NCBI RefSeq assembly: GCF_000819445.1
Contig: NZ_CP005286.1
Span: 372,001-436,000, forward strand
DNA length: 64,000 nt
DNA from: Corynebacterium humireducens NBRC 106098 = DSM 45392
GTDB taxonomy: Bacteria; Actinomycetota; Actinomycetes; Mycobacteriales; Mycobacteriaceae
Direction: 5' to 3'
Position numbers and translations under genes: made by a program. This document shows, in pieces, positions 29,246-43,752 of the stretch; position 1 is the first letter of the stretch; every line of letters begins with the position of its first letter. The notes beneath the pieces were generated by a model that saw only the letters and a program-made list of their open reading frames with translations, was not told the DNA's origin and did not search any database.

Positions 29246-30472
29246 GTGGGTCAGTCAGTGCTGCCGACCACCCGCGCGCAGGTGTCCGGTCACCGGTTCC
29301 TGCGCCGCCGGGTCGAGCACGGCCTCGTGCTCGGTGACATCCGCATGATCCACGACCCGTTGGCCGCCCGCTCGCGGGCGCTGCTCTTCGGTGTGGTGGC
29401 GGTGGTGATGATCGGGCTAGGCGCGGGGCTGCTCGCCTGGCTGCGACCCGCCGCGCACCCGGGGGAGGCGCCGATCCTGCAGACCTCCGGGGGCGCGTTG
29501 TTCGTGCGTGTCGACGACCGCGTCCACCCCGTCACCAACCTCGCCTCCGCGCGGCTCATCGCCGGCGGTGACGAGGACCCGGCGCGGATCGGGGACGGGG
29601 TGCTCGCGGAGCTGGAACGGGGCGTGCCGGTGGGGATCCACCCGGCGCCGCTGGTGCTGGGGGAGTCCCCGGCCGGGGAGCCGGAGTGGTCGGCCTGCGC
29701 GGACGGCGAGGGCGTGGTGACCGTGGCGGTCGGCGACCACACCAACCCCCTCGGCGGGCACCGGGGCGTGCTGGCCACCGGGGCGGGCGCGGACTGGCTG
29801 CTTACCACCGCGGGGCGGCACCGCCTGCCGCACCCGGAGTCCCCGGAGGGACGGACCGTGCGCCGGGCCCTCGGGGTGACGCCCACGACCCCGCGCTGGG
29901 AGCCGCCCGTCGAGGTGCTCAACGCCGTGCGGGAGCTCGATCCGGTGCTGCTGCCGGAGGCCCCCGCGGAGATCCTCGACACGGGGACGGGGCTGTGGGC
30001 GCTGCTGCCGACGGGCGTCGCCCCTCTCAGCGACACGCAGGCGGAGGTGCTCGCCGCGACCGGCGTGCCGCGCCGGGCCGTTCCCCGGGAGGAGCTGTCC
30101 CACCACCCGGACACCCCCTATGACGTGCGGCTGCCCGCCGTCGCCCCGCTCTTCCTCGATCCGCGGGAGGTCACCGTGTGCGCCACGGACGGACAGGTGG
30201 CCACGCTCGTCTCCGACACCCGGCCGGTGGCCCTGTCCGGGACGGGGGTGGCGGACGAGTTCCGGGGCGGGGTCCGCGCGGCCCTGGCGGTGGACACGGG
30301 CCACGGGCACCACGTGGTGGACACGACCGGCCTGCGGCACCCGGTACCCGAGCGGGAGGATCTGGTGGCGCTGGGGCTGCCGGAACCCGTCGCCGCCCCC
30401 TGGTCGGTGGTCCGCCTGCTGCCGGAGGGACCACCCCTGTCGCGGGTGGCGGCCCTGCAGGCCAGCTACTGA
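29246..30472 (+). CDS. eccB: Type VII secretion protein EccB (ESX-4)
   Basis: EccB is a core membrane component of the ESX machine with a single helix and a large outer domain. The 408-residue protein begins with the family sequence PTTRAQVSGHRFLRRRVEHG and continues LGDIRMIHDPLAARSRALLF. The helix lies at about 50-72 and the rest is extracytoplasmic, with repeated domains. It starts with GTG at 29246, where the family motif requires the frame. It is the first gene of an ESX-4 locus spread over both strands. No EccE is found, as is normal for ESX-4. Confidence 0.93.
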   Translation: MGQSVLPTTRAQVSGHRFLRRRVEHGLVLGDIRMIHDPLAARSRALLFGVVAVVMIGLGAGLLAWLRPAAHPGEAPILQTSGGALFVRVDDRVHPVTNLASARLIAGGDEDPARIGDGVLAELERGVPVGIHPAPLVLGESPAGEPEWSACADGEGVVTVAVGDHTNPLGGHRGVLATGAGADWLLTTAGRHRLPHPESPEGRTVRRALGVTPTTPRWEPPVEVLNAVRELDPVLLPEAPAEILDTGTGLWALLPTGVAPLSDTQAEVLAATGVPRRAVPREELSHHPDTPYDVRLPAVAPLFLDPREVTVCATDGQVATLVSDTRPVALSGTGVADEFRGGVRAALAVDTGHGHHVVDTTGLRHPVPEREDLVALGLPEPVAAPWSVVRLLPEGPPLSRVAALQASY

Positions 30473-30507: not shown

Positions 30508-30936
30508 ATGCCGTCGATGAGAGAGATGGTGTCGGACCGCATCGACCGGATCAAGGACACCCACTCCCGCGCCAAGGAGGGCCGTTACGGCTTCCTGGTG
30601 CGGCCGCTGACACTCACCCTCGGGTGGACGATCCTCATCATCGGCGTCGTCACCATCCCGCTGCCCGGGCAGGGGTGGCTGACCACCTTCATCGGCGTGG
30701 GCATCCTCTCCCTGGAGCAGGCGTGGGCGAAGAATCTGCTCGTCCGGGGCGTGCACGTCTACGACCGTTTCTTCGACTGGTTCCACCGGCAGCGGCAGTC
30801 GGTGCGGATCACCCTGGTGACCCTGCTCATCGTCGTCATCTGGATCGTGTTCCTCGGCGTCGGCTACGGCATGTGGCGGGCCGGCACCCTCGACTTCCTC
30901 ACGCCCTGGGCCCACGAGCTCGAACTGGTGCGGTGA
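30508..30936 (+). CDS. PGPGW-type (TIGR02611-like) membrane protein
   Basis: A 142-residue protein with the sequence TIPLPGQGWLTTFIGVGILSLE, the hallmark of a small actinobacterial transmembrane family (PGPGW). A second hydrophobic segment follows at about 99-122 (ITLVTLLIVVIWIVFLGVGYG). Function is unknown. It sits inside the ESX-4 locus, 35 bases after eccB, and overlaps the 3' end of the convergent mycosin gene by 38 bases. Whether it takes part in secretion is not known. Another ATG at 30504 is out of frame. Confidence 0.75.
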   Translation: MPSMREMVSDRIDRIKDTHSRAKEGRYGFLVRPLTLTLGWTILIIGVVTIPLPGQGWLTTFIGVGILSLEQAWAKNLLVRGVHVYDRFFDWFHRQRQSVRITLVTLLIVVIWIVFLGVGYGMWRAGTLDFLTPWAHELELVR

Positions 30937-31978
30937 GCAGCACGGCGAGCAGCGCCACCAGGAGGAGGGTTCCTGCCCGGGCGGGCACGCCGCCGGTCTC
31001 CGCCCGGTGCTTCTCGACGCCCACCTCCCGCCCCTCCCGCGCGTAGTCACCCGCCAGGTGGGTCACCGTCGTGTGCGTGTCGACGACACCATGCCCCGGT
31101 TCCGCGGCCTCCACGATGCGGTGCCGCAGGTCAGCGGCCGAGTCGAAGGGGTGCCGTTCCCGCAGCAGCGCCGCCACGCCGGACACCACGGGGGCGGCGA
31201 AGCTCGTGCCCTCGAAGGAGGCCTCCTGCCCCTGGGCGTTGACGGTGCCCGTGGCATGGCCGTGCCCGGCAGGCGACAGCCCCACCGGGACCCGTCCGGC
31301 GGCGGCGACCTGCCCGCCGGGCAGCACGTACCCGGCCAGGGCGTGCGGGTCCCCGGGGTGGACCGCCCCGACGGCGAGGACGGTCTCCTCGTGCGCCGGG
31401 TGGACCACCATGCCCGGCTGGCACTGGCCACCCGCGTTGCCGGCGGCCGCGACGACGACCACCCCGTCCTCCTCCGCGCGCCGGAGGGCGTGGTGGAGCG
31501 GGGCGGCGTCGAGAAGCACCGCGGGATCGAGGCAGGACACGACGGAGATGTTGATCACCCCGGCGCCCGCGTCGAGGGCGGCGTGGACCGCCTGCGTGAG
31601 GGTGTCGAGGGTGCCGCCGGAGGAGTCGCGGTAGTGGCCGCTCGACTGCCGGATGCTGAGGATCTCCGCACCCGGGGCGACCTCCCGGATGACACCGGCG
31701 ACGACCGTCCCGTGGCCGTCGCAGTCGAACCAGGGGTCCGGCGCCCACGGGGAGACCAGGTCCGCGACCGGCTCCACGTGCCCCAGGGAGGGGTGCGGGG
31801 CGACGCCGGTGTCAATGACCGCCACCCGGACACCCTCCCCGCGGGCGATGCGGTGCACGTCGGGTTCCGCGGCGACCGGGGGCGGCGCCTCGACCGGGCG
31901 GACGCAGGCGACGTCCTGGGCCGCCGCCGGGGGAGCGAGCAGCAGCGCGGGGACGAGCAGCCCCGCGGCGCGCCTCAC
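30899..31978 (-). CDS. mycP: Mycosin (subtilisin-like serine protease) of ESX-4
   Basis: Mycosins are membrane-anchored subtilases required for the stability of ESX machines. Starting at the GTG at 31978 the 359-residue protein has a signal peptide (about 1-21). The catalytic triad is D56 (VIDTG), H89 (DGHGT) and S259 (EGTSFAAP), and a C-terminal membrane helix (GTLLLVALLAVLLTA) is present. The start overlaps the eccD stop by four bases (GTGA), which supports it; the longer upstream reading has no subtilase features. The oxyanion Asn lies in AAAGNAGGQ. Confidence 0.93.
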   Translation of the reverse strand: MRRAAGLLVPALLLAPPAAAQDVACVRPVEAPPPVAAEPDVHRIARGEGVRVAVIDTGVAPHPSLGHVEPVADLVSPWAPDPWFDCDGHGTVVAGVIREVAPGAEILSIRQSSGHYRDSSGGTLDTLTQAVHAALDAGAGVINISVVSCLDPAVLLDAAPLHHALRRAEEDGVVVVAAAGNAGGQCQPGMVVHPAHEETVLAVGAVHPGDPHALAGYVLPGGQVAAAGRVPVGLSPAGHGHATGTVNAQGQEASFEGTSFAAPVVSGVAALLRERHPFDSAADLRHRIVEAAEPGHGVVDTHTTVTHLAGDYAREGREVGVEKHRAETGGVPARAGTLLLVALLAVLLTAPVRARGPRA

Positions 31979-33321
31979 CCCAGCCCCCGGATGAGCACGA
32001 AGAACCCGGCCAGGTGGGCGGCCAGCGGCAGGGACGCCGCCAGGGCCAGGGACTCGGCGTGCTCCCACCACACGACGGTGGTCGGCTCCACCTCCGGGAC
32101 CCGGGGCACCCACAGCGGGGCGGTGAGTGCGGTCGCGGCGCACGCGAGGGCCGGCACCCACTGCGCCGGGTGACCGGGGTCGGTGGCGGCCCACACCCCG
32201 GCGAGGCAGGCGACGAACCCGACCGACATCCACGACCACGCCGGCACCACCTGCCGGTGCCGGGAGGCGTGGAGGGCGACGGCCCCCAGGGCCGCCACGC
32301 ACAGGGCCTGCGCGAAACCTCCGCCGTGGGCACCGACGGTGAGCAGCGCCGGGGTAAGGGCCAGGGCGGCGCCGAGGGCGGCCCCGTCGTGGAGGCGGCG
32401 GGCGCGCCGGGCGCGGGCGTCGACGTCTGCGGGGCCGCCGTCACCGCCGTCGGAGTTGTCCGCCACCCCGAGATCCTGTCCCGCGGTGGGTAGCCGCGGC
32501 ACCCGCAGCCCGGCGACGCGGATGACCAGGTCCGGCAGCTGCCCGGTGAACACCACCCCGGCGGCGATGACCAGCGCCGCGGCCGCCACGGCGGGGTCGG
32601 CGGCATGCGCGGGGAGGAAGGCCCCGACGGCGCCGACCGCGCCCAGTCCGAGCAGCGTGGCGGTGGCTGCGGCGGTGCGGGGGCCGGTCCCGCGGAGGAC
32701 GATGAGCAGGACCAGCACGGCCGTGGCCGTCGCCGCCGCGCTGAGGGCGGCCCAGCCGAATGTGTGCGGGTGGGTGAGCTCCTCCGGGCGGGCGGCCTCC
32801 ACCACGGCGGCGGCCGCGGCCCCGGCCGCCAGCAGACAGATGACCGGGGCGAGGACACGGACCTCACGGCGGGCGAGGAGCAGCAGGAGGGCGACCCCCG
32901 CCGCCAACGCCAGGGCCTGTGACCAGGGAAGATACGTACCGGCGAGGATGAGCGACGCCAGGGTGCCGGTCACCGACCCGGCCGCCGCCAGCCCCCGGGT
33001 GTCGGCGTCGACGTCCGCCTCGACGAGGGCCTCGGCGGCGTCGCGGATGACGGGCAGGGTGCCCTCGTGACGCGGGGAGAGGACCACCACCGCCCCGTGG
33101 TCGAGCGACGTCCGGTGCAGCGGGACCGCCGGGCCCAGCGGGGTACCCGCGGCCGTGGTCGCCAGCCAGGGCCGGGAGATCCGGGGCGCGCCCACCAGGG
33201 TGACGATCTCCGGGATCACCTCCGCCAGCGTGGAACCCGCCGGGACCGCGACGTCCGCCTCCCGCAGGTAGGTGCCGATCTGGAAACGGGTGGTCAGACG
33301 CAGGACATGGTCCACGGACAC
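31975..33321 (-). CDS. eccD: Type VII secretion protein EccD (ESX-4)
   Basis: EccD forms the channel-like membrane part of ESX systems. The 448-residue protein has a ubiquitin-like N-terminal domain (about 1-90, LRLTTRFQIGTYLREADVAV) followed by eleven predicted helices. The length and organisation match the family. It starts with GTG at 33321 after a GGGGGA-type ribosome-binding site and is translationally coupled to mycP. It is divergent from eccC with about 187 bases between starts. Confidence 0.9.
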   Translation of the reverse strand: MSVDHVLRLTTRFQIGTYLREADVAVPAGSTLAEVIPEIVTLVGAPRISRPWLATTAAGTPLGPAVPLHRTSLDHGAVVVLSPRHEGTLPVIRDAAEALVEADVDADTRGLAAAGSVTGTLASLILAGTYLPWSQALALAAGVALLLLLARREVRVLAPVICLLAAGAAAAAVVEAARPEELTHPHTFGWAALSAAATATAVLVLLIVLRGTGPRTAAATATLLGLGAVGAVGAFLPAHAADPAVAAAALVIAAGVVFTGQLPDLVIRVAGLRVPRLPTAGQDLGVADNSDGGDGGPADVDARARRARRLHDGAALGAALALTPALLTVGAHGGGFAQALCVAALGAVALHASRHRQVVPAWSWMSVGFVACLAGVWAATDPGHPAQWVPALACAATALTAPLWVPRVPEVEPTTVVWWEHAESLALAASLPLAAHLAGFFVLIRGLG

Positions 33322-33429: not shown

Positions 33430-33508
33430 GCGTCGGGAAGCTGTCCTATCATGACGGGCGACTGCGCCGGTTGGGGTGACCGGCGGGCACATCCGGAGGG
33501 GGATGGGG
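33430..33508 (+). promoter_or_regulatory. eccD-eccC divergent region
   Basis: The region carries a copy of the dispersed word (GCGTCGGGAAGC, 33430-33441). TATCAT (33447-33452) is a possible -10 box for eccC. GGAGGGGG at 33495-33502 is the ribosome-binding site that favours the ATG at 33509 over the in-frame ATG at 33503. The element found before the WXG100 pair is not present here. Confidence 0.35.
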
Positions 33509-36500
33509 ATGTCTCTGCCCATGGACGCCGTCAGCACCGGCGTCATCGTCACACCGCTCACGCCTGCCGAGAGGGAACCGGCGCCGCCGTTGCCGCAGGG
33601 CACGCTCAGCGTCGAGCAGGTGCCGGCGGCGCACCGGCCGGGACCGGTGCCGCTCATCCGGATCCTCATGCCGGTCATCATGGTGGCCGGCATGGTCGCG
33701 ATGGTGGGGCTCATGCTGCTCGGCGGGGCCGGAGCCAACCCGATGTTCCTGCTGTTCCCGCTGATGATGGCGATGTCGATGCTCATGATGTTCGCGCCCC
33801 CGCAGGGCGAGGACGCCGACGACACGCGCCGCACCTACCTGCGGCACCTCGGGGCGCTGCGGGAGCAGGCCCTGCGCAACGCCGCACGCCAGCGGGCGCA
33901 CGAACTGCACCGGCACCCGGAGCCGACGGAGCTGTGGACGCAGGTCGACGGGCCCCGCCTGTGGGAACGCGGGCCGGAGGACCCGGACACGCTGGAGGTG
34001 CGCATCGGCACCGGGGACACCGCCCTGTGCACCCCCGTGCAGGTGCCGGACTCCGGCGCGGCGGAGGACCTTGACCCGGTGTGCGCGGTGAGTCTGCGTC
34101 GCACGGTGCAGGCGGTGGGCACCTGCCCGGCGATGCCGGTGGCGGTGCAGCTGCAGGCCTTCCGGTTCCTCGCCATCGGCGGCCCCGGGGCCGGGGACCT
34201 GGCGCGGGCGATGGTCGCGCAGCTGGTGGTCGCGCACGGCCCGGAGACGGTGGCGGTCTCCGCGGTCGGCGGCGGCTGGGACTGGCTCAAGTGGCTGCCG
34301 CACACCCGCCGCCCGGAGCAGGCCCGCCACCGGATCCTCGTCGTCGACCACACCACCACGACCGGCGCCGAACCCTACCTCGACGACCCCACGTGGACCA
34401 CGATCATCGACGTCGGCTCGTGCGCCACCACCGCCCTCGGGATGCGGGCGGAGCAGGAGGGACTGTCGCTGTCCGCGGACGGGGACCTGGTGGCGCACAC
34501 GGCGGCGGGCGTCGAGAAGCTCGGGCGGGCCGACCGCCTGCGGCCGGCGGAGGCGTTGATCCTGGCCCGCGCCCTGACACGTTTCCGCCGGGCGGACGGC
34601 GCGACAGCCGACGGCGGCCGCGACCTCACCGCGCTCCTCGGCCTGGCCGACATCGAGCAGCTCACCCCGGAGACCATGTGGCCGGGGCGGGAGCTGAGCC
34701 CCCACCGCCTCGTGGTGCCGATCGGGACGACGCCGCAGGGGGTGCCCGTGCGGCTCGACCTCAAGGAGTCCGCGCACGGCGGCATGGGGCCGCACGGGCT
34801 GTGCATCGGCGCCACCGGGTCCGGCAAATCAGAGCTGCTGCGCACCCTGGTGGTGTCGCTGGCGGCGACGCACAGCCCCGAGGAACTCAACCTCGTGCTC
34901 GTCGACTTCAAGGGCGGTGCCACGTTCCTCGGGCTCGAGGGCCTGCCGCACACCTCGGCGGTGATCACCAACCTGGCGGACGAGGCCGTGCTCGTGGAGC
35001 GCATGTACGACGCCCTCTCCGGGGAGCTCAACCGCCGCCAGGAGGTGCTGCGGGAAGCGGGCAACTTCGCCAACGTCACCGAGTACACGACCGCCCGCCT
35101 CGGAGGCCGTGACCTGCCGCCGCTCCCGGCGCTGGTCATCGTGGTCGACGAGTTCTCCGAGCTGCTGGCCGCGCACCCCGACTTCGCGGACCTCTTCGTC
35201 GCCGTCGGCCGCCTGGGACGTTCCCTGCACGTGCATCTGCTGCTGGCCAGCCAGCGCCTCGAGGAGGGACGTCTGCGCGGCCTCGACTCCCACCTGTCCT
35301 ACCGGATCGGCCTGAAGACCTTCTCCGCCGCCGAGTCACGCCAGGTCCTCGGCGTCACCGACGCCCACCACCTGCCGGCCGAACCCGGCGCGGGCTTCCT
35401 GCGTCACGACGCCGACCAGCTCCTCCGCTTCCGGGCCGCCTACGTCTCCGGCCCGCTGGAACGCCGCGCCGTGCCGACCGGCGCGCCGGGCCGGGTGGAG
35501 CTGTTCACCGGCTGGGAGCAGTTCGATGAGGCGGAGGCGCCCACGGTCATCGACGAGTCCACGACGCTTCTCGACGCCGTCGTCACCCGCGCCCGCGCCA
35601 CCGCCGCCGCCCGCCGGCAGGAGGCGCACCGGGTGTGGCTGCCGCCCCTGCCCGCGGCGGTGGAGCTGGCCGGCGTCGCCGAGGACGTCGGTGACCTGCG
35701 GGCGGCGGTGGGCATCATCGACCTGCCCTACCACCAGCGCCAGGACCCGCTGGTGCTGGACCTGGCGGCGGCCGGCGGGCACGTGGCGGTGTGCGGCGGC
35801 CCGCAGACCGGCAAGTCGACGGCGCTGCGCACCATCGTCGCGTCCCTGGCCGCCACCCACGGGACCGACCGGGTGCGCTTCTACGTCATCGACCTCGGCG
35901 GCGACCAGCTCGCCACCCTGGATCGCCTGCCGCACGTCGCCGGCGTGGCCGGGCGCGCGGACCCGGAGCGGGTGCGCCGCATCGTCGACGAGGTCACCGG
36001 CCTCGTCGAGGACCCCGCGGAGGAACGTCGGCACACCTTCCTCGTCGTCGACGGCTGGCACGCCCTGGCCGCAGACTTCGAGGACCTCCTGGAGCCGTTG
36101 ACGGGGCTGGCGGCGGACGGGCCGTCGAAAAGTGTGCACCTCATCGTGTCCACCCCACGGTGGACGGTGCTGCGGCCTGCGGTCCGGGACCTCATCGCGC
36201 ACCGCCTCGAACTCAAGCTCGGGGAGGCGATGGACTCGCTCATCGACCGCCGGGTGCAGCAGAAACTGCCCGCCCTGCCCGGTCGGGGGCTGGACCCGGA
36301 GGGACGGCCGATGCTCGTGGCCCGCAGCTCCAACCAGGACCTCGCGCACATCGCGGCGGCGTCGGCCGGGCAGGAACCGGTGCCCGCGCTCAAGGTGCTC
36401 CCGCCGCTGGTGCACGCGGCGGAACTCGCGCCGGGCGGGCCGGGGATCGCGTTCGGAGTCGGTGGCCCGCGCCTGGCGACCCTGTGCTGGGACCCCGCCA

Positions 36501-37123
36501 CCAGCCCCCACCTGCTGTGCATCGGCGGGCAGGGCGCGGGCAAGTCGACGCTGCTGGCCACCGTCATGGAGGGCATCGCCCGACTGGGGCGGGAGGCGGC
36601 GAGGATGGTCGTCATCGACCACCGGCGGGCGCACCTCGGGCGTGTCGACGACTCCCTCCTCGCCGCCTACTCCGCCACGACCACGGCGACCGCGGAGACG
36701 CTCCGCGACGTGGTGACGACCCTGAACGCCCGCCTGCCGGGTCCCGACATCACCCCGGCGCAGCTCGCCGCCCGCGACTGGTGGAGCGGCCCGGACATCC
36801 ACCTGGTCATCGACGACCTCGACCTCGTCGCCGACCACGACCTCACCCGCCTCACCGGGCTGCTGCCGCACGCCCGCGACATCGGCCTCCACCTCATCCT
36901 CGCGCGTAAGTCCGGCGGCATCGGCCGCGCGCTGTTCGCACCGTTCCTGTCCGCCGTCCGTGACCAGTCCCCGGCCGTCCTGCTTCTCGACGCCGACCGC
37001 GACGAAGGCACCGTCCTCGGAATCCGCCCCGTCCCGCAGCCACCCGGACGCGGCACGTGGCAGGTCCGCGGAGAGACGGTCGGGGTGTGCCAGGTCGCCG
37101 TCCCCACCCAGGAGAAACCATGA
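33509..37123 (+). CDS. eccC: Type VII secretion ATPase EccC (ESX-4)
   Basis: EccC is the FtsK/SpoIIIE-type motor that recognises and drives ESX substrates. The protein has about 1204 residues. Two N-terminal helices (IRILMPVIMVAGMVAMVGLM) and a DUF domain precede three ATPase domains. Walker A motifs are GATGSGKSE (nucleotides near 34808), GGPQTGKST (near 35795) and GGQGAGKST (near 36526). The first domain also shows Walker B (ALVIVVDEFSE). It is one continuous polypeptide, not split into Ca/Cb, as in ESX-4. The stop overlaps the next gene (ATGA). Confidence 0.95.
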   Translation: MSLPMDAVSTGVIVTPLTPAEREPAPPLPQGTLSVEQVPAAHRPGPVPLIRILMPVIMVAGMVAMVGLMLLGGAGANPMFLLFPLMMAMSMLMMFAPPQGEDADDTRRTYLRHLGALREQALRNAARQRAHELHRHPEPTELWTQVDGPRLWERGPEDPDTLEVRIGTGDTALCTPVQVPDSGAAEDLDPVCAVSLRRTVQAVGTCPAMPVAVQLQAFRFLAIGGPGAGDLARAMVAQLVVAHGPETVAVSAVGGGWDWLKWLPHTRRPEQARHRILVVDHTTTTGAEPYLDDPTWTTIIDVGSCATTALGMRAEQEGLSLSADGDLVAHTAAGVEKLGRADRLRPAEALILARALTRFRRADGATADGGRDLTALLGLADIEQLTPETMWPGRELSPHRLVVPIGTTPQGVPVRLDLKESAHGGMGPHGLCIGATGSGKSELLRTLVVSLAATHSPEELNLVLVDFKGGATFLGLEGLPHTSAVITNLADEAVLVERMYDALSGELNRRQEVLREAGNFANVTEYTTARLGGRDLPPLPALVIVVDEFSELLAAHPDFADLFVAVGRLGRSLHVHLLLASQRLEEGRLRGLDSHLSYRIGLKTFSAAESRQVLGVTDAHHLPAEPGAGFLRHDADQLLRFRAAYVSGPLERRAVPTGAPGRVELFTGWEQFDEAEAPTVIDESTTLLDAVVTRARATAAARRQEAHRVWLPPLPAAVELAGVAEDVGDLRAAVGIIDLPYHQRQDPLVLDLAAAGGHVAVCGGPQTGKSTALRTIVASLAATHGTDRVRFYVIDLGGDQLATLDRLPHVAGVAGRADPERVRRIVDEVTGLVEDPAEERRHTFLVVDGWHALAADFEDLLEPLTGLAADGPSKSVHLIVSTPRWTVLRPAVRDLIAHRLELKLGEAMDSLIDRRVQQKLPALPGRGLDPEGRPMLVARSSNQDLAHIAAASAGQEPVPALKVLPPLVHAAELAPGGPGIAFGVGGPRLATLCWDPATSPHLLCIGGQGAGKSTLLATVMEGIARLGREAARMVVIDHRRAHLGRVDDSLLAAYSATTTATAETLRDVVTTLNARLPGPDITPAQLAARDWWSGPDIHLVIDDLDLVADHDLTRLTGLLPHARDIGLHLILARKSGGIGRALFAPFLSAVRDQSPAVLLLDADRDEGTVLGIRPVPQPPGRGTWQVRGETVGVCQVAVPTQEKP

Positions 37124-38076
37124 GCGCACCCACCCTGCCCGGCACTCTGACCATCACCGTCCTCGACACCGCCACCATCTTCGAGGGCCCCGACACCGTC
37201 TACCGCTACGACCTGCCCGGCACCGGCATCATCGACGGCTGGGCCCTGCCCGCCGTCCTCGACCAGGCGAAGGAACTGTGCAGCCTCAACTGGCCCGACG
37301 TGGAGGTCATCGTCGACGCCGACGACCCCACCACCGAGGTGCTCACCCGCTCCCTGCTCAACAAGGGCGTGGCCGCCTACCCCTCGGAGGTGCTGCGGGA
37401 GAAGGCCCTGCCTGAACCGGAGGAGGTGCCCCTCACCCGTCCCACCCGGCGCGCCGGACGACACCGCCTGGAGGGACTGCCCGTCGACCCCTTCCACGTG
37501 ATCGTCGGGGTGGTCGTCCTCGCGATCCTCGGGCTGAGCTGGTGGGTCGTCGGCGGGACGCGGTCCCCGGCGCCGGCTGCGGCACCCGCGTCGACGGCGC
37601 CGGCTGCACCCCCGGTGACGACGAGTGCGGAACCGGTGACGTCGACAAGCAGCACACCGGAACCCCGCGCCGTCCTGGAGCACGAGTCCCTCCGGGTGGA
37701 GGTGCCGCGCGGCTTCCACCTCGAGGACCGCGAGGGCCTGCTCCTGGCCACCGGCGACGACCCCGACCTGCGGATCCGGCTGGCCGCCGACCCCGTGTTC
37801 ACCGTGCCGCCGGAGGAGGTGGAGGCGCAGATCCACGCGATGATCGACACCGACGACACCCTGCACCCCCTCGACCCCGAACGCGCGGCGCGGGGCCTGC
37901 AGGTCATCCGCTACCGGGAGACCCCCGGCGACGGCTCCGAGGTCACCTGGCACACCTGGATCGAGGACGCCCACCAGCTCTCCGTGGGCTGCCACACCCG
38001 CACCGAACCGACCCTCCCGCAGAAGGCGGCCTGCCGCATGGCCTTCGACTCGGTGGAGCTCCTCGGGGCCCACTGA
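37120..38076 (+). CDS. Type VII secretion-associated protein (Rv3446c-like)
   Basis: A 318-residue protein in the position of Mycobacterium tuberculosis Rv3446c, between eccC and the WXG100 genes. The N-terminal 105 residues form a soluble domain (LTITVLDTATIFEGPDTVYR). One membrane helix (about 126-146, HVIVGVVVLAILGLSWWVV) follows, then a Thr/Pro/Ala-rich linker and an outer domain of about 140 residues. This is the layout of the TIGR03931 family of ESX-associated proteins. It overlaps eccC by four bases and so is co-translated. Its mechanism is not known. Confidence 0.8.
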   Translation: MSAPTLPGTLTITVLDTATIFEGPDTVYRYDLPGTGIIDGWALPAVLDQAKELCSLNWPDVEVIVDADDPTTEVLTRSLLNKGVAAYPSEVLREKALPEPEEVPLTRPTRRAGRHRLEGLPVDPFHVIVGVVVLAILGLSWWVVGGTRSPAPAAAPASTAPAAPPVTTSAEPVTSTSSTPEPRAVLEHESLRVEVPRGFHLEDREGLLLATGDDPDLRIRLAADPVFTVPPEEVEAQIHAMIDTDDTLHPLDPERAARGLQVIRYRETPGDGSEVTWHTWIEDAHQLSVGCHTRTEPTLPQKAACRMAFDSVELLGAH

Positions 38077-38116: not shown

Positions 38117-38144
38117 GGGAACCTTTGGCGGGTTTCCGGAGTCC
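38117..38144 (+). promoter_or_regulatory. Extracytoplasmic-sigma-like promoter of the WXG100 pair
   Basis: GGGAAC (38117-38122), an 18-base spacer and GTCC (38141-38144) resemble promoters of ECF sigma factors such as SigM or SigE, rather than the TAnnnT form used elsewhere in the window. The flanking context (CTTT after the first box, AGTCCAAnnATGGTG around the second) recurs with identical spacing before the operon at 41835. In M. tuberculosis SigM is reported to control the orthologous esx genes, which makes this attractive. Confidence 0.6.
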
Positions 38145-38245
38145 AACAATGGTGGAGAGGCCGCGGAGACGGCCCTCCGGGGGACGGTCGGGGAGGGGCC
38201 CCGACTCCGGACCCCGCACACACATCAACTCGGGAGGGGCAAGAC

Positions 38246-38563
38246 ATGACACAGATGTTCAGGACCGAAGCCGACGTGATGCTGGCGACCGCCGGCCACG
38301 TCGACACCACCAACAACGAGGTACAGGGCGAACTGACCCGCCTCCAGGGCGTCGTCGACGGCGTCCGCGGCAGCTGGGCCGGCAGCGCCCAGGTGTCCTT
38401 CGACCAGCTCATGCAGCGGTGGAACACCTCCGCGCGGGAGCTGCGCGAGGCGCTGACCAGCATCTCGGACAACATTCGTCACAACGCGCGCTCCTTCGAG
38501 TCCATGGAGGCCCAGAACGCGCAGGCATTCACCAACGTCGGCGGCCAGGGCCTCGCGCTCTAG
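38246..38563 (+). CDS. esxU: WXG100-family protein, EsxU-like
   Basis: Small helical-hairpin proteins of this family are secreted by ESX as heterodimers. The 105-residue protein has the central WAG motif (SWAGSA, the variant of WXG) between two amphipathic helices (about 8-42 and 50-92). No signal peptide is present, as expected. Its position, directly before a second WXG100 gene and rplM, equals that of esxU. The symbol rests on synteny. A GGGAGGGG ribosome-binding site precedes the ATG. It is transcribed from the ECF-like promoter upstream. Confidence 0.88.
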   Translation: MTQMFRTEADVMLATAGHVDTTNNEVQGELTRLQGVVDGVRGSWAGSAQVSFDQLMQRWNTSARELREALTSISDNIRHNARSFESMEAQNAQAFTNVGGQGLAL

Positions 38564-38584
38564 CCACAGGAAAGGACACAGACA

Positions 38585-38872
38585 ATGGACGCAATCAAGT
38601 ACCAGTTCGGCGCCATCGCAGCCGCCGCCGGCGACATCAACGCCACCTCTGGCCGCATCAACGCGCTTCTCGACGACCTCAAGTCCCAGCTCCAGCCCAT
38701 GGTCGCGACCTGGGAGGGCGAGTCCGCCACTGCCTACGCCGAGGCGCAGGCAAAGTGGGACCGTTCCGCCGCGGAGCTCAACACCATCCTGGCCACCATC
38801 TCCCGCACCGTCTCGGAGGGCAATGACCGCATGTCGGACGTCAACCGCATGGCGGCCGCCAGCTGGGGCTGA
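38585..38872 (+). CDS. esxT: WXG100-family protein, EsxT-like
   Basis: The second member of the WXG100 pair, 95 residues, with TWEGES at the turn between helices (about 5-40 and 46-90). It begins 21 bases after its partner's stop with AGGAAAGGA upstream, so the two are made together and probably form a heterodimer that exits via EccC. The symbol is by synteny with mycobacterial esxT. A strong terminator follows at 38998-39038. Confidence 0.88.
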   Translation: MDAIKYQFGAIAAAAGDINATSGRINALLDDLKSQLQPMVATWEGESATAYAEAQAKWDRSAAELNTILATISRTVSEGNDRMSDVNRMAAASWG

Positions 38873-38997
38873 TCCCGCATGATCCTGCTGCGGCGGTGCC
38901 GGACCGTCCCTGACACTGACAGGGCACGGACGCGACCCTGGTCCGGCACCGGGTGCGGTCACCCGGGCAGGTGACCGCGCCGTCACTGCGGCTTGCT

Positions 38998-39038
38998 ACC
39001 GCCCGTCCTCTCCGTCGCCGGGGAGGGCGGGCGGTTTT
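38998..39038 (+). terminator. Terminator after the WXG100 pair
   Basis: ACCGCCCGTCCTCTCC (38998-39013) pairs with GGGGAGGGCGGGCGGT (39020-39035) with few mismatches, followed by TTTCTG. It closes the ESX-4 transcript before the rplM leader. Confidence 0.8.
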
Positions 39039-39054
39039 CTGCGTGGTGCCGCGG

Positions 39055-39132
39055 GGCGTCGGCAAGGTCGAGACGACATCGTCGAACTCACATCGTCGGG
39101 AGGGCGCCCCACGGCGTCGGCAAGGTCGAGAC
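39055..39132 (+). repeat. Direct repeat in the rplM upstream region
   Basis: GGCGTCGGCAAGGTCGAGAC occurs at 39055-39074 and again at 39113-39132, 58 bases apart. Between them are GACATCGTCGA and CACATCGTCGGGA. The unit begins like the dispersed word GGCGTCGRGAAGC. The 460-base gap between the WXG100 pair and rplM also holds the terminator before and the promoter after this repeat; nothing else is evident. Confidence 0.75.
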
Positions 39133-39190
39133 CACTCTCCCTCCGACCATCTCCTCTCGAACCTGCGCCAGGGGCCACCAGGAGGCGGTT

Positions 39191-39220
39191 TGGTTTCCGT
39201 GGCCCCCACCCCTTACACTG
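39191..39220 (+). promoter_or_regulatory. Promoter of the rplM-rpsI operon
   Basis: TTGGTT (39191-39196), an 18-base spacer and TACACT (39215-39220) form a good corynebacterial promoter. It predicts a start near 39227 and a leader of about 105 bases. Confidence 0.6.
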
Positions 39221-39332
39221 GACAAGTTGTGTGCGCTGTGCACGGGTCTCCACCGGCCGCCGTGTCCAGCTATGCACCCACCAGCACGATCCATGGCCGG
39301 CAGCCCCCAGACAGACTTTCAAGGAGTCATTA

Positions 39333-39776
39333 GTGTCTACTTACCACCCGAAGAGCGGTGACATCACCCGTAAGTGGTACGTCATCGACGCCACCGACGT
39401 GGTGCTGGGCCGACTCGCCACCCACGCAGCAGGCCTGCTGCGCGGCAAGGGCAAGCCCCAGTACGCACCCAACGTTGACTGCGGTGACCACGTCATCGTC
39501 ATCAACGCCGACAAGGTTCACGTGTCCTCCAACAAGCGTGACCGCGAGATGCGCTACCGCCACACCGGTTACCCGGGTGGTCTGCGCTCCATGACCCTGG
39601 GCAAGGCTCTGGACACCCGTCCGGAGCGCGTGGTCGAGGAGGCTATCACCGGCATGATGCCGCACAACAAGCTCTCCCGCGCTTCCGTCAAGAAGCTCCA
39701 CGTTTTCGCCGGCTCTGAGCACCCGTACGCCGGCCAGCAGCCCGAGACCTACGAGATCAAGCAGGTGGCACAGTGA
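39333..39776 (+). CDS. rplM: 50S ribosomal protein L13
   Basis: L13 is an early assembly protein of the large subunit. Starting at the GTG at 39333, with AAGGAG seven bases upstream, it has 147 residues, the normal length. It begins [20 protein letters not shown] and contains the core [20 protein letters not shown]. An upstream in-frame start would add 34 residues of leader and is rejected. Its stop overlaps the rpsI start by four bases (GTGA). Confidence 0.97.
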
Positions 39777-40321
39777 CCGAGCAGAACCAGAACGAAGATC
39801 TGAACGTGGCTGAGGCTGGCGACATCGAGGCCGCCACCGCCGCCACCGAGGAGTTCAACTACACCATCGGCGATGCCGTCGCTCCGGAGGTTTCCGAAGA
39901 CGAGGCCGCCGAGATCGCCGCTCCGATCGAGCTGGACGGTCCGATCCAGACCGTCGGTCGTCGTAAGCGCGCCATCGCCCGCGTCCACCTGGTCGCCGGC
40001 TCCGGTGAGATCACCTGCAACGGCCGCTCCCTCGAGGAGTACTTCCCGAACAAGCTGCACCAGCAGGACATCATGCAGCCGCTCGCTCTCCTGGAGCGCG
40101 AGGGCCAGTTCGACATCCAGGCGAACATCGCCGGCGGTGGCCCGACCGGCCAGTCCGGTGCCCTGCGTCTGGCTATCGCCCGTGCGCTGAACCTGTACAA
40201 CCCGGCTGACCGCGCCGCCCTGAAGAAGGCCGGACTGCTCACCCGTGACGCTCGTGCAGTCGAGCGTAAGAAGGCTGGTCTGCACAAGGCACGTCGTGCC
40301 CCGCAGTACTCCAAGCGTTAA
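39773..40321 (+). CDS. rpsI: 30S ribosomal protein S9 with N-terminal extension
   Basis: S9 reaches the P-site tRNA with its C-terminal tail. The core starts at about residue 58 ([20 protein letters not shown]) and ends with the universal [17 protein letters not shown]. An acidic Glu/Ala-rich extension of about 55 residues precedes it, common in corynebacterial S9. The GTG at 39773 overlaps the rplM stop. A strong terminator follows before glmM. Confidence 0.97.
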
Positions 40322-40340
40322 GCTCCGTCTTCGCCTGTCG

Positions 40341-40370
40341 ACGCCGCTCCACCACACGGTGGGGCGGCGT
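40341..40370 (+). terminator. Rho-independent terminator after rpsI
   Basis: ACGCCGCTCCACC (40341-40353) pairs with GGTGGGGCGGCGT (40358-40370) around ACAC with one G-T type pair, followed by TCGCCGTTCC. It separates rpsI from the independently transcribed glmM. Confidence 0.85.
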
Positions 40371-40394
40371 TCGCCGTTCCCGGGCGGGGCGGGG

Positions 40395-40408
40395 CATAAT
40401 GTCCGTCA
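40395..40408 (+). promoter_or_regulatory. -10 box and leaderless start of glmM
   Basis: CATAAT (40395-40400) ends seven bases before the ATG at 40408, so transcription should begin at that ATG. This argues against the alternative ATG at 40399, which lies inside the -10 box. Confidence 0.5.
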
Positions 40409-41751
40409 TGACTCGACTTTTCGGTACTGACGGTGTTCGTGGACTGGCGAACAAGGATCTGACTGTCTCCCTGGCGTTGCAGCTGGGTGCGGCGGCGGCG
40501 GATGTGCTCACGAAGCACCGTAAGTCGAGTGAGCGTCGTCCCACCGCGATCGTCGGTCGTGATCCGCGTGTCTCGGGTGAGATGCTCGCCGCCGCCCTGT
40601 CGGCCGGCATGGCGTCCCGTGGCGTCGATGTACTGCGTGTCGGTGTGATCCCGACCCCGGGCGTGGCCTTCCTCACCGACGACTACGGTGCGGACATGGG
40701 CGTGATGATCTCCGCGTCGCACAACCCGATGCCGGACAACGGCATCAAGTTCTTCTCGGCGGGTGGCCGGAAGCTGCCGGACGCCGTCGAGGACGAGATC
40801 GAGGCGGCGATGGCGTCCCTGCCGGAGAACGGTCCGACGGGCACGGGTGTGGGCCGTGTCATCGAGGAGTCCCCGGACGCGCAGGACCGTTACCTCAAGC
40901 ACCTGGCGGCGTCCTCCCCGGTCAGCGTCGCGGGCATCAAGGTGGTCGTCGACGCCGCGAACGGTGCGGCCTCGGTCGTCGCCCCGAAGGCCTATGAGGC
41001 GGCGGGTGCGGAGGTCATCGCGATCCACAACAAGCCGAACGCCTACAACATCAACGACAACTGCGGTTCCACCCACATCGGGCAGCTGCAGAAGGCGGTC
41101 ATCGAGCACGGTGCGGACCTGGGTCTGGCGCACGACGGTGACGCGGACCGTTGCCTGGCGGTCGACGCGGAGGGCAACCTCATCGACGGTGACCAGATCA
41201 TGGCGATCCTGGCGGTGGCGATGAAGGAGAAGTCCGAGCTGCGGAAGAACACGCTCGTCGCCACGGTGATGTCGAACCTGGGTCTGCGTCTGGCGATGGA
41301 GGAGCAGGGCATCACCATGCTGGAGACGAAGGTCGGCGACCGGTATGTCCTCGAGGAGCTCAACGCCGGTGACTACCGCCTGGGTGGGGAGCAGTCGGGG
41401 CACATCGTCCTGCCGGTGCACTGCACCACCGGTGACGGCACCCTCACCGGTCTGAAGCTGATGGCGCGGATGGCGGAGACCGGGAAGTCCCTGGCGGAGC
41501 TGGCCGGCGTGATGAAGGTCCTGCCGCAGGTGCTCATCAACGTGCCGGTGGAGAACAAGGCCGGGATCATGGGCTCCCCCGAGGTGCAGGCCGCCATCGA
41601 GGCCGCCGAGGCCGAGCTGGGTCACTCCGGCCGTGTCCTGCTGCGTCCCTCGGGTACGGAGGAGCTGTTCCGCGTCATGGTCGAGGCCGCGGAGACCGAG
41701 CAGGCGCGTCGCGTCGCGGGTCGCCTCGCGGCGGTGGTGGCCGCCGTCTAG
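40408..41751 (+). CDS. glmM: Phosphoglucosamine mutase
   Basis: GlmM converts glucosamine-6-phosphate to glucosamine-1-phosphate on the way to UDP-GlcNAc for peptidoglycan. Starting at the ATG at 40408 the protein has 447 residues. The phosphorylated serine is S102 (ISASHNP), the metal-binding loop is DGDADRC, the sugar-binding loop GGEQSGHI, and the phosphate-binding site [10 protein letters not shown]. All parts are intact. With glmS in the same window the cell has two successive steps of the pathway close together but in separate operons. Confidence 0.97.
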
Positions 41752-41759
41752 CCACCCCC

Positions 41760-41787
41760 GGGAACCTTTCGCCCCCTTGAGCAGTCC
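41760..41787 (+). promoter_or_regulatory. Second copy of the ECF-like promoter
   Basis: GGGAAC (41760-41765), an 18-base spacer and GTCC (41784-41787) have the same spacing and flanking bases (CTTT, AGTCCAAnnATGGTG) as the element before the WXG100 pair at 38117. The predicted start is about 41794, with a leader of about 40 bases. Two copies in one window before ESX-type genes suggest a shared sigma factor. Confidence 0.6.
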
Positions 41788-41834
41788 AATGATGGTGAAC
41801 CCATCCACCACGGACGCCACAAGGGGGATTTCTC

Positions 41835-42134
41835 ATGTCCGGGATCCATCTCGACCACGGGGCCGCGCTGCAGGCGCTGTCCCGTCTGCTTCTCGACGGC
41901 GAGGAGCAGCACCGCCGCCACCTCAGCACCCGACCCGCCCTGCCGGTCGCCGCTCTCGGCCGTGACTTCGCCGCACACGGCGCGCAGATCGCGGCGATGC
42001 TGCACCGTGTCCACGACACCGGCAGGGAGCGTATCGACGCCCTGCGTACCACCGCCGAGTCCGCCGCGGCGCAGGTGCGGGTGTTCGGGGACATCGACAA
42101 GCACCTGGGCGCGCACCTGCGGGGTGTCCACTGA
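41835..42134 (+). CDS. Small helical protein, EspC/ESX-substrate-like
   Basis: A 99-residue protein without signal peptide, predicted as two long helices (about 8-30, HGAALQALSRLLLDGEEQHR; about 43-95). The sequence LGRDFAAHGAQIAAMLHRVH followed by RIDALRTTAESAAAQVRVFG resembles the EspC (DUF2580) type of ESX-associated proteins rather than classic WXG100, since no WXG is present. It heads a three-gene operon driven by the ECF-like promoter and overlaps the next gene by one base (TGATG). I infer an ESX-4 substrate or chaperone role; no experimental basis is known to me. Confidence 0.6.
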   Translation: MSGIHLDHGAALQALSRLLLDGEEQHRRHLSTRPALPVAALGRDFAAHGAQIAAMLHRVHDTGRERIDALRTTAESAAAQVRVFGDIDKHLGAHLRGVH

Positions 42135-43522
42135 TGTCGGGCCCGCTGATAGCGGAGGGATTCAGCAGCGTGACCCGGATGCTCGCGGGCGCCTCACACG
42201 GCGCGTACCGCGGGCCGGGGGTCTCCGCGGACACCATCGCGCAGGCCGTGTCCGCGACGGAGGGACTCGACGCGGGGCAGCTGGTCACCGCCACCCGGGC
42301 CGCCGTCGGCGAGGCGGACGCGACGACGCTGCAGGGTGGGATCCTCGGGCAGGTCGCGTCGACCCTCGGTGAGGTCGCGATGGGGGAGATCCTCCGCCGG
42401 GTGGTGGACCACGCCCGGGACTGGTTCGACAACCGCGACCGCTCCGGGGAGCTTCTCGACGACTCCCGGCACGCCGCCGACGCCCTCGAGGACATCGACG
42501 CCGTCGCCGAGACCGCCTGCACCGAGGTGGTGCTCGCGCTGCGGGCGGTCATCGCGCAGCTGTGCACCTTCCTCAACCACCTCGATCCCGCAGTGCACAC
42601 GCGGGAGTTCTCCGAGTGCGTCGGCGCGGGCGCCGCACTCATCGAGGACGCCGGGCAGCTGATCCTCGACTGCTGCCAGGACCGCGACACCGCCGTCGCG
42701 GCCTGCCTCGACGAGTTCCTCGCCCGGGGCACAGCCCTCTGCGAGGCACCCGTGTGCCGCACCGAGGTCGTGGACTGCCCACCAGCGGTGCCTCCCGCAC
42801 CGGAATCTGCGCCGGAGCCCGTGGCACCGCCGAAGAAACTGGTGGAGGTGTCGGCCATCCCGCAGGCGGTGGAACCACCGGCCCCTGAACCGGTGGAACC
42901 TGCACCGCCGCCGAAGAAACAGGTGGAGGTGCCGGTCGCCCAGTCCGCACCGGAGCCGCCTGCCCCGGCCCCTGAGCCGGCAGAACCCACTCCACCGCCG
43001 AAGATGGTGGAACCGTCGACCCCTGAGCCGGCAGACCCCACTCCGCCGCCGAAGAAACAGATGGAGGTACCGACGACGCCGCAGTCCGCACTCGTAGAGG
43101 AGCCGGTGGAACCACCGGTTACTGAACCGGCCCCGGAGGAACCCGCCGTCACGGAGGAGGTGTGCGTGGAGACCCCGGCGGGGGAGGTTCACTGCGGAGT
43201 GCTCGGGGAGGTCGGCATGGGCATCGCCCTGCTGGGGCTGGCCCTGCTGATCGGGGCCCTGGAGGACTGCCTTGTGGAGATCGAGGCCCCGGTGGAACCG
43301 GAGCCGCTGCCGGAACCTGAGCTCCCGGTGGAACCTGCGGCGGTGGAGCCTCCGCCGCCGCCCAAGCAGGTGGAGAACCCACCGACACCGGTCGCTCCAC
43401 CTGCGCCGGAGACACCCCTGACGTCCCCGGTTCCCCCGGCACCTGCGCCGGAAGCACCACCGACACCACCATCCCCACCGGCCGCGGTGCCGGGTAGCGC
43501 ACGAAAGGCAGGAGCCTGGTAA
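42134..43522 (+). CDS. Cys-containing protein with Pro/Glu-rich repeats, possible ESX-4 client
   Basis: A 462-residue protein with three parts. Residues 1-215 are helical and contain about ten cysteines (for example ETACTEVV, LDCCQDRD, VCRTEVVDC). Residues about 216-350 are repeats of the type PEPVEPAPPPKKQVEVP. Residues about 360-400 include one hydrophobic segment (GEVGMGIALLGLALLIGALE), followed by another Pro-rich tail. I do not recognise the family and see no N-terminal signal peptide. The operon position after an EspC-like gene and the shared promoter suggest export or a surface role linked to ESX-4. The Pro repeats may span the cell wall. Confidence 0.65.
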   Translation: MSGPLIAEGFSSVTRMLAGASHGAYRGPGVSADTIAQAVSATEGLDAGQLVTATRAAVGEADATTLQGGILGQVASTLGEVAMGEILRRVVDHARDWFDNRDRSGELLDDSRHAADALEDIDAVAETACTEVVLALRAVIAQLCTFLNHLDPAVHTREFSECVGAGAALIEDAGQLILDCCQDRDTAVAACLDEFLARGTALCEAPVCRTEVVDCPPAVPPAPESAPEPVAPPKKLVEVSAIPQAVEPPAPEPVEPAPPPKKQVEVPVAQSAPEPPAPAPEPAEPTPPPKMVEPSTPEPADPTPPPKKQMEVPTTPQSALVEEPVEPPVTEPAPEEPAVTEEVCVETPAGEVHCGVLGEVGMGIALLGLALLIGALEDCLVEIEAPVEPEPLPEPELPVEPAAVEPPPPPKQVENPPTPVAPPAPETPLTSPVPPAPAPEAPPTPPSPPAAVPGSARKAGAW

Positions 43523-43752
43523 TGGAGTTCGAGGAGTTCGCCAAGCAGTTCCGGCAGCGTACGACGCAGCGGATGATGGAGTTCGAGAAGGCGTTGGCTG
43601 CGGCGCAGCAGCGGGTGGAGCACGCGGTCGCGGCCCCGGCCCCGCGCAGGACACCACCGGCGTCACAGACATCACCGCAAGCCGAGCAGCCCCTGCGCAC
43701 CCGGCGCGGTGCGGCGCGCGGGCAGGTGCAGGGGCTGCTGCGGAAGGGCTGA
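43522..43752 (+). CDS. Small basic protein, third gene of the accessory operon
   Basis: A 76-residue protein, MEFEEFAKQFRQRTTQRMME followed by a basic, Pro-containing tail ending GQVQGLLRKG. The N-terminal 35 residues form an amphipathic helix. No family recognised. It starts by a one-base TAATG overlap with the previous gene, so it belongs to the same transcript. It may be an accessory factor for the upstream protein. Confidence 0.6.
   Translation: MEFEEFAKQFRQRTTQRMMEFEKALAAAQQRVEHAVAAPAPRRTPPASQTSPQAEQPLRTRRGAARGQVQGLLRKG

Follow-up and report, generated by a model that had tools for sequence, protein, structure and literature searches.

Does the secretion pair of a type VII locus share its promoter with a neighbouring operon of unassigned proteins, and if so, which sigma factor would read that promoter? 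The question arises in a 64,000-nucleotide (nt) stretch of Corynebacterium humireducens NBRC 106098 = DSM 45392 (assembly GCF_000819445.1, contig NZ_CP005286.1, positions 372,001 to 436,000, forward strand), which we refer to in full as the window. It contains an ESX-4 locus with a pair of WXG100 genes and, downstream of glmM, an operon of three genes (41835-43752) encoding the proteins p99, p462 and p76. A preliminary description of this DNA had pointed to the word GGGAAC-N18-GTCC ahead of both, and had proposed that one alternative sigma factor co-induces them. Both words were found on the forward strand, at 38117-38144 (GGGAACCTTTGGCGGGTTTCCGGAGTCC) and 41760-41787 (GGGAACCTTTCGCCCCCTTGAGCAGTCC), and their spacing is the same, the first box is followed by CCTTT in both, and the second is flanked in both by AGTCCAAnnATGGTG. 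Each belongs to a longer word, GGGAACC-N16-AGTCCAA, hereafter promoter 1 (38117..38146, + strand, 5' of the WXG100 pair) and promoter 2 (41760..41789, + strand, 3' of glmM and 5' of the p99/p462/p76 operon). The evidence presented below makes it very probable that both words serve as promoters for SigM, an extracytoplasmic function (ECF) sigma factor, and that about 11 such promoters launch one programme.

Two similar words might occur in a GC-rich window by chance, and the bare word gives this explanation some substance. GGGAAC-N18-GTCC has just two exact copies in the window, namely those of promoters 1 and 2, but 0.48 copies are expected there and two or more were present in 9 of 100 window shuffles, which is not beyond chance. 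Across the genome, a single contig of 2,681,312 bases, the loose form GGGAAC-N17-19-GTCC gave 32 matches compared to 25 for the reversed control, and we therefore replaced it as a genome-wide criterion with an extended word. The possibility, raised in the preliminary description, that the word is frequent and random thus holds for the bare and loose forms, but fails for the longer word common to both sites. GGGAACCT-N15-AGTCC is found 8 times in exact form across the genome, and not once when the spacer is lengthened by one base. Similarly, GGGAACC-N16-AGTCYAA occurs 9 times exactly, 2 times with one mismatch and 9 times with two (20 in total), compared to 5 in all at up to two mismatches for its reversed control. 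Assuming independent bases at the composition of the window, the exact word is expected 0.02 times per genome and 0.0005 times per window, and was seen 9 and 2 times, respectively. With a GGAAC-type -35, a GTC/GTT-type -10 and fixed spacing, it has the form of an ECF promoter.

Sites with 0 or 1 mismatch to GGGAACC-N16-AGTCYAA were taken as strong (n = 11). Each of them is followed on the same strand by a start codon, 36-129 nt away as counted from the first base of the site; in 6 of the 11 this distance is 36 or 37 nt, which implies that the mRNA has no leader. Because the leaderless members of the set fix the distance, transcription from promoter 1 is predicted to start near 38153, with a leader of about 93 nt, and that from promoter 2 near 41796, with a leader of about 39 nt. 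Besides the WXG100 pair and the operon of 99, 462 and 76 amino acids (aa) in the window, the strong sites precede an operon for an 89-aa protein (p89) and an NlpC/P60 hydrolase; genes for a SAF-domain protein, a Tag methyladenine glycosylase, a 306-aa AbiEi-like protein and a 311-aa protein whose AbiEi match falls below the Pfam cut-off; a broken AbiEi-like frame, as read from the sequence (L045, G000:C1:2060258-2060287, - strand, single mismatch); a gene for a 191-aa protein followed by another frame, which we take to be treY; a gene for a 217-aa protein that combines a hydrophobic stretch at its N-terminus with a GmrSD_C/HNH nuclease domain; and a gene for a DUF3558 protein followed by one for a 588-aa protein. 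The 588-aa protein has no Pfam match, and 'PPE' stands in the source name of 5 of its 47 listed relatives. The spacer of the nuclease promoter is nearly invariant (...GCCTCACACC-AGTCC) in C. humireducens and four close genomes (L417-L420, L425), which suggests a second element overlapping this promoter. Separately, an identical 29-base word, GGTAACCTGCCACCATGCCGATCAAGACC, is present at 8 places in the genome (e.g., G000:C1 115503-115531 and 2467870-2467898) and is probably part of a repeated mobile element.

The promoters are conserved well beyond this genome. Exact GGGAACCT-N15-AGTCC was found in 59 copies in 26 of 101 Corynebacterium genomes, 8 of them in C. humireducens, compared to 3 copies for the reversed control. 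The 51 copies outside C. humireducens correspond to 29 loci, 17 of which precede orthologues of the same genes as judged by tblastn, while two lie 5' of eccC, one lies 5' of yraN and nine have no assigned target. Among these nine, L061 stands 5' of an open reading frame (ORF) whose compared part is the same as that of a p99-family member of alignment A1, and L052 and L063 precede short ORFs. We also employed a scored search that tolerates variation (threshold 11.5), covering 80 of the 99 genomes with WXG100 protein 2 and including nearly all those with a diverged SigM; the 19 left out were C. humireducens, near-duplicates, contig-edge cases and close relatives. The promoter before the WXG100 pair scored at least 11.5 in 74 of the 80 genomes, and that after glmM in 61 of the 72 giving any candidate there. 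The conservation of these sites, together with an expectation of 0.0005 for the extended word where two are seen, leaves chance hardly credible; as an explanation it is already refuted by the conservation.

Orthologues of two further targets gave a similar picture, with promoters present at 27 of 30 NlpC-module loci and 25 of 30 nuclease loci (C. humireducens counted in each), and at 0 of 30 on the opposite strand in each case. Each set holds the 30 best-matching loci from the 101 genomes searched, and close relatives are therefore favoured. The start codon lies at 36 or 37 in all 27 NlpC-module sites, as in the 6 strong sites described above, and this constancy, which would fix the transcription start, bears on whether the words might be regulator binding sites or a structural DNA element. 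A word known here from its sequence is compatible with such a role, but the fixed spacing, the single orientation to the gene and the two-box ECF form all argue against it, and we regard it as very improbable.

Outside Corynebacterium, the comparison covered 19 loci of 7 genera, the best matches of 141 genomes; in all but L170, GGAAC[CG]-N16/17-CGTC stands 5' of a WXG100 gene (18 of 19). Rhodococcus (L100), Rhodococcoides (L114) and Mycolicibacter (L144) also have a site downstream of glmM, where it precedes a short p99-like ORF. We rejected the ORFs at this position in Rhodococcus and Mycolicibacter as orthologues, given that they are 21% and 14% identical to the p99 of the window, and their link to p99 therefore rests on place and promoter. 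With sites in these other genera, the pairing looks older than the split between them.

If the words are ECF promoters, the question becomes which sigma factor reads them. The C. humireducens genome has seven sigma-70 region 2 genes, five of which we labelled SigC, D, E, H and M by their neighbours and length. The sigM gene lies at about 2.671 Mb between murJ and trxB, the gene order that marks the sigM orthologue, and diverged SigM proteins in other genomes were identified by the same neighbourhood, with a trxB match in the retrieved stretch for 81 of the 82 sequences used. The gap between sigM and trxB in C. humireducens is about 60 nt, leaving no room for an anti-sigma gene there. At L330 and L342 (genomes G013 and G076), the two genes are separated by a candidate anti-sigma gene, an ORF of 228-240 aa whose product has one hydrophobic stretch. 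As for autoregulation, no GGAAC-N15-19-GTC is present within 400 nt upstream of C. humireducens sigM.

Both the sites themselves and SigM provide evidence of coordinated change. Within genomes, the two window sites co-vary, with an identity of 12.82 of 14 letters compared to 11.97 when permuted (0 of 5000 permutations), and the result was again 0 of 5000 for the 36 distinct pairs. Across 64 genomes, the distance between promoters of the WXG100 pair follows SigM distance, with a partial Mantel correlation of 0.531 given GlmM (0 of 2000), whose gene lies between both promoters and served as anchor and phylogenetic control, and of 0.408 given TrxB, encoded by the gene adjacent to sigM (0 of 2000). 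The reverse partial correlations were -0.267 (GlmM) and -0.051 (TrxB). In 8 scanned genomes the -35 is without its second G (GTGAACC or similar), and in 7 of these 8 SigM has K for R at the fourth residue of KSRR, in the helix presumed to read the -35. K is found at this residue in 0 of the 77 other SigM sequences, which have R (71) or other residues (6). The genomes with altered -10 types, AGTCTCTC in 3 and CGCC in 5, each form a single clade by GlmM, and each of these clades has a SigM region 2 of its own. The proposed co-induction of the WXG100 pair and the operon at 41835-43752 by a single alternative sigma factor is supported, as far as sites that are conserved, that co-vary and, for the WXG100 pair, that follow SigM can indicate. 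Two other approaches were set aside: column-wise mutual information between SigM and promoter positions was dominated by clades and not used as evidence, and the presence of SigM compared to that of ESX-4 was uninformative, an ECF match being found in 101 of 101 genomes and a WXG100 protein in 99 of 101. SigM evolves very fast: across these 64 genomes its mean pairwise distance is 0.62, whereas GlmM has 0.25 and TrxB 0.27. The SigM distances come from part of loci L187-L216 and L327-L386.

The same data bear on whether the words, as ECF promoters, might have SigE, SigH or more than one ECF factor as their reader, and not SigM specifically. Such a reading has candidates in the seven sigma genes of this genome, and C. 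glutamicum offers two precedents. There, SigH/SigE promoters have the form GGAAC-N17-18-cGTT, and those of SigH only GGAAt...GTT (PMC10012870), so that the -35 core is the same and the spacing overlaps, and four promoters formerly assigned to SigM showed SigH dependence only (PMC5483222). However, the third letter of the second box is C here (GTC) and T there (GTT), promoter divergence tracks SigM more than GlmM or TrxB, the change in the recognition helix accompanies the change in the -35 in 7 of 8 genomes, and in Mycobacterium tuberculosis it is SigM that activates the esx-4 genes, including esxU and esxT (PMC10117145). Taken together, we consider reading by SigE, SigH or several factors improbable, and SigM the preferred reader.

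Several observations weigh against the assignment to SigM or against the generality of the promoters. Counted as for SigH/SigE, the sites here are GGAAC-N17-[AC]GTC, and overlap with the SigH/SigE promoters is possible, while the covariation analysis took in SigM alone among the sigma factors. The NCBIfam SigM model NF007225 is the best match of the C. humireducens protein, but at 135.9 bits it falls short of the cut-off of 190, and we read the protein as a diverged orthologue because of its gene order. With respect to the recognition helix, G065 has a changed -35 yet keeps R, and the 8 genomes with a changed -35 all fall within one clade of 9 in the GlmM tree, together with G080, and therefore represent one event. 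The comparison of SigM helices covers the scanned genomes, and GTGAAC also stands 5' of the WXG100 gene in two further genomes (L162, L163). As for the sites, the promoter before the WXG100 pair is below threshold in G001, G027, G044, G055, G057 and G099, that after glmM is below it in 11 of 72 genomes, and five control stretches on the opposite strand of the same regions reach 11.5. At least six of the nine exact-word loci without a target gene are chance-like copies, and the loose form of the word is mostly noise genome-wide. Finally, these are putative promoters recognized here from sequence.

If SigM is the reader, the following mechanism can be proposed. RNA polymerase carrying SigM would contact GGGAACC, span 16 bases and open the DNA at AGTCYAA, with transcription starting about 6-7 nt beyond this box, a position at which, in 6 of the 11 sites, the start codon itself begins. 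The programme launched in this way would comprise the ESX-4 WXG100 pair, the p99/p462/p76 operon, the operon of p89 and the NlpC/P60 wall hydrolase, the DUF3558 lipoprotein with the 588-aa protein, some relatives of which are named as PPE family, and the HNH (GmrSD_C) nuclease with its hydrophobic N-terminus. In C. humireducens itself it may extend to the SAF-domain protein, the Tag DNA glycosylase, the AbiEi-like proteins and the 191-aa gene.

The locus to which promoter 1 belongs contains the components expected of a type VII system, with EccB, EccC, EccD, a mycosin and the WXG100 pair found together. EccB (29246..30472, +) matches PF05108 and is above the cut-off of TIGR03919; EccD (31975..33321, -) matches PF19053 and is above that of TIGR03920; and the EccC ATPase (33476..37123, +) is above the cut-offs of both TIGR03924 and TIGR03925. 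The mycosin-like protease MycP (30899..32302, -) is a clear Peptidase_S8 protein, with a TIGR03921 score of 233 bits, below the cut-off of 278.75. An ORF of 318 aa (37120-38076, +), with a hydrophobic segment but without a Pfam match, separates eccC from promoter 1, which is followed by WXG100 protein 1 (105 aa, 38246..38563, +; PF06013, E 9.9e-22) and WXG100 protein 2 (95 aa, 38585..38872, +; PF06013, E 2.8e-20), both above the cut-off of TIGR03930. The number 4 in ESX-4 is assigned from the position beside rplM-rpsI-glmM. GlmM itself (40399..41751, +), taken from the ORF list, is 66-90% identical to the GlmM proteins of loci L077-L101. The same promoter word was observed 5' of eccC at L055 and L069 (genomes G043 and G045), so the secretion ATPase seems to be in the regulon in some species.

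The operon under promoter 2 encodes p99 (99 aa, 41835..42134, +), p462 (462 aa, 42134..43522, +), which is proline-rich in its C-terminal part, and the 76-aa protein (43522..43752, +), which carries the motif FEEFAKQF...FEKALAAAQ. Neither p99 nor p462, the latter taken from the ORF list, has a Pfam or NCBIfam match, and the 76-aa protein has no Pfam match. Alignment A2 of p462 has 12 members, and short third ORFs similar to the 76-aa gene are present in several relatives. The operon adjoins rplM-rpsI-glmM, presumably like Rv3440c-Rv3439c in M. tuberculosis. Pairwise BLASTP detected no similarity between p99 and p89, but comparison of the two families by HHalign gave a probability of 95.5 (E 1.5e-8). 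We infer that p99 and p89 each act as a small partner to the larger protein encoded alongside, and that the pairs may be ESX-4 cargo or helpers. For neither was membership of the WXG100 family supported at this depth of comparison, with no Pfam WXG100 match and HHalign probabilities of 12.7 (p99) and 3.5 (p89) against WXG100 protein 1. We rejected p462 as a paralogue of the NlpC protein, with no meaningful BLASTP similarity between the two.

What such a programme might serve can be considered only tentatively. One possibility, which we hold to be rather unlikely as it stands, is that SigM commands a single ESX-4 deployment programme, launched partly from leaderless promoters, for contact-dependent DNA acquisition or cell-cell exchange. 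Its content would then be the secretion pair, two related operons of small partners and cargo, one with a wall hydrolase, PPE-like cargo, an exported HNH nuclease and DNA-handling proteins (Tag, and YraN-ComM in at least one genome), an equally speculative list. SigM and ESX-4 of M. smegmatis were reportedly the subject of work by Clark in 2018, and a link to conjugation is said to exist. The yraN site was also examined for a competence-type reading through yraN-comM. In its one exact copy (L064, genome G041), yraN is followed by a ComM-like frame; an upstream site reached the threshold in 5 of 29 loci, and C. humireducens has none at up to 2 mismatches. The competence-type reading was rejected by itself and survives within the speculative reading just given.

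These results offer a candidate answer to an open question, that of the targets of SigM in corynebacteria. A microarray study of C. glutamicum attributed 23 genes to SigM (Nakunst 2007, cited in PMC5483222). Later work (PMC5483222, 2017) looked for SigM-dependent promoters and found none, and the four promoters of that set that were localized and tested are those with the SigH dependence described above; its authors allow that renatured SigM was perhaps inactive in vitro and call for further investigation. The sigma factor considered here is the same by name and locus, whereas the set differs, consisting of ESX-4, a wall hydrolase and a nuclease. With a precisely defined, conserved promoter word and a brief list of genes, SigM control becomes testable in C. 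glutamicum, and through their common promoter p99/p462, p89/NlpC-P60, the PPE-like protein and the HNH nuclease can be named as candidate ESX-4 cargo or helpers. The type VII secretion system of C. glutamicum, described in 2025, is encoded by a locus of the same kind, whose WXG protein ExsI is secreted (PMC12607788). A Fur site lies upstream of eccB there, whereas the promoters here lie 5' of the WXG100 pair and of the operon after glmM, and the word sigM is absent from the main text of that paper, as far as its available part goes. Among the open-access papers listed, no title or abstract opening dealt with SigM control of ESX-4 in corynebacteria. The closest parallel is the SigM/ESX-4 regulon of M. 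tuberculosis and M. smegmatis, in which the WXG100 pair is under SigM (PMC10117145). The second box is AGTC in most Corynebacterium examined, unlike the CGTC of the other genera of the family. SigM control of ESX-4 is of a known kind, described in mycobacteria, and would here be extended to corynebacteria. Within the literature searched, the regulon of the latter appears to be new, as do its partner operons and the leaderless form of part of its promoters.

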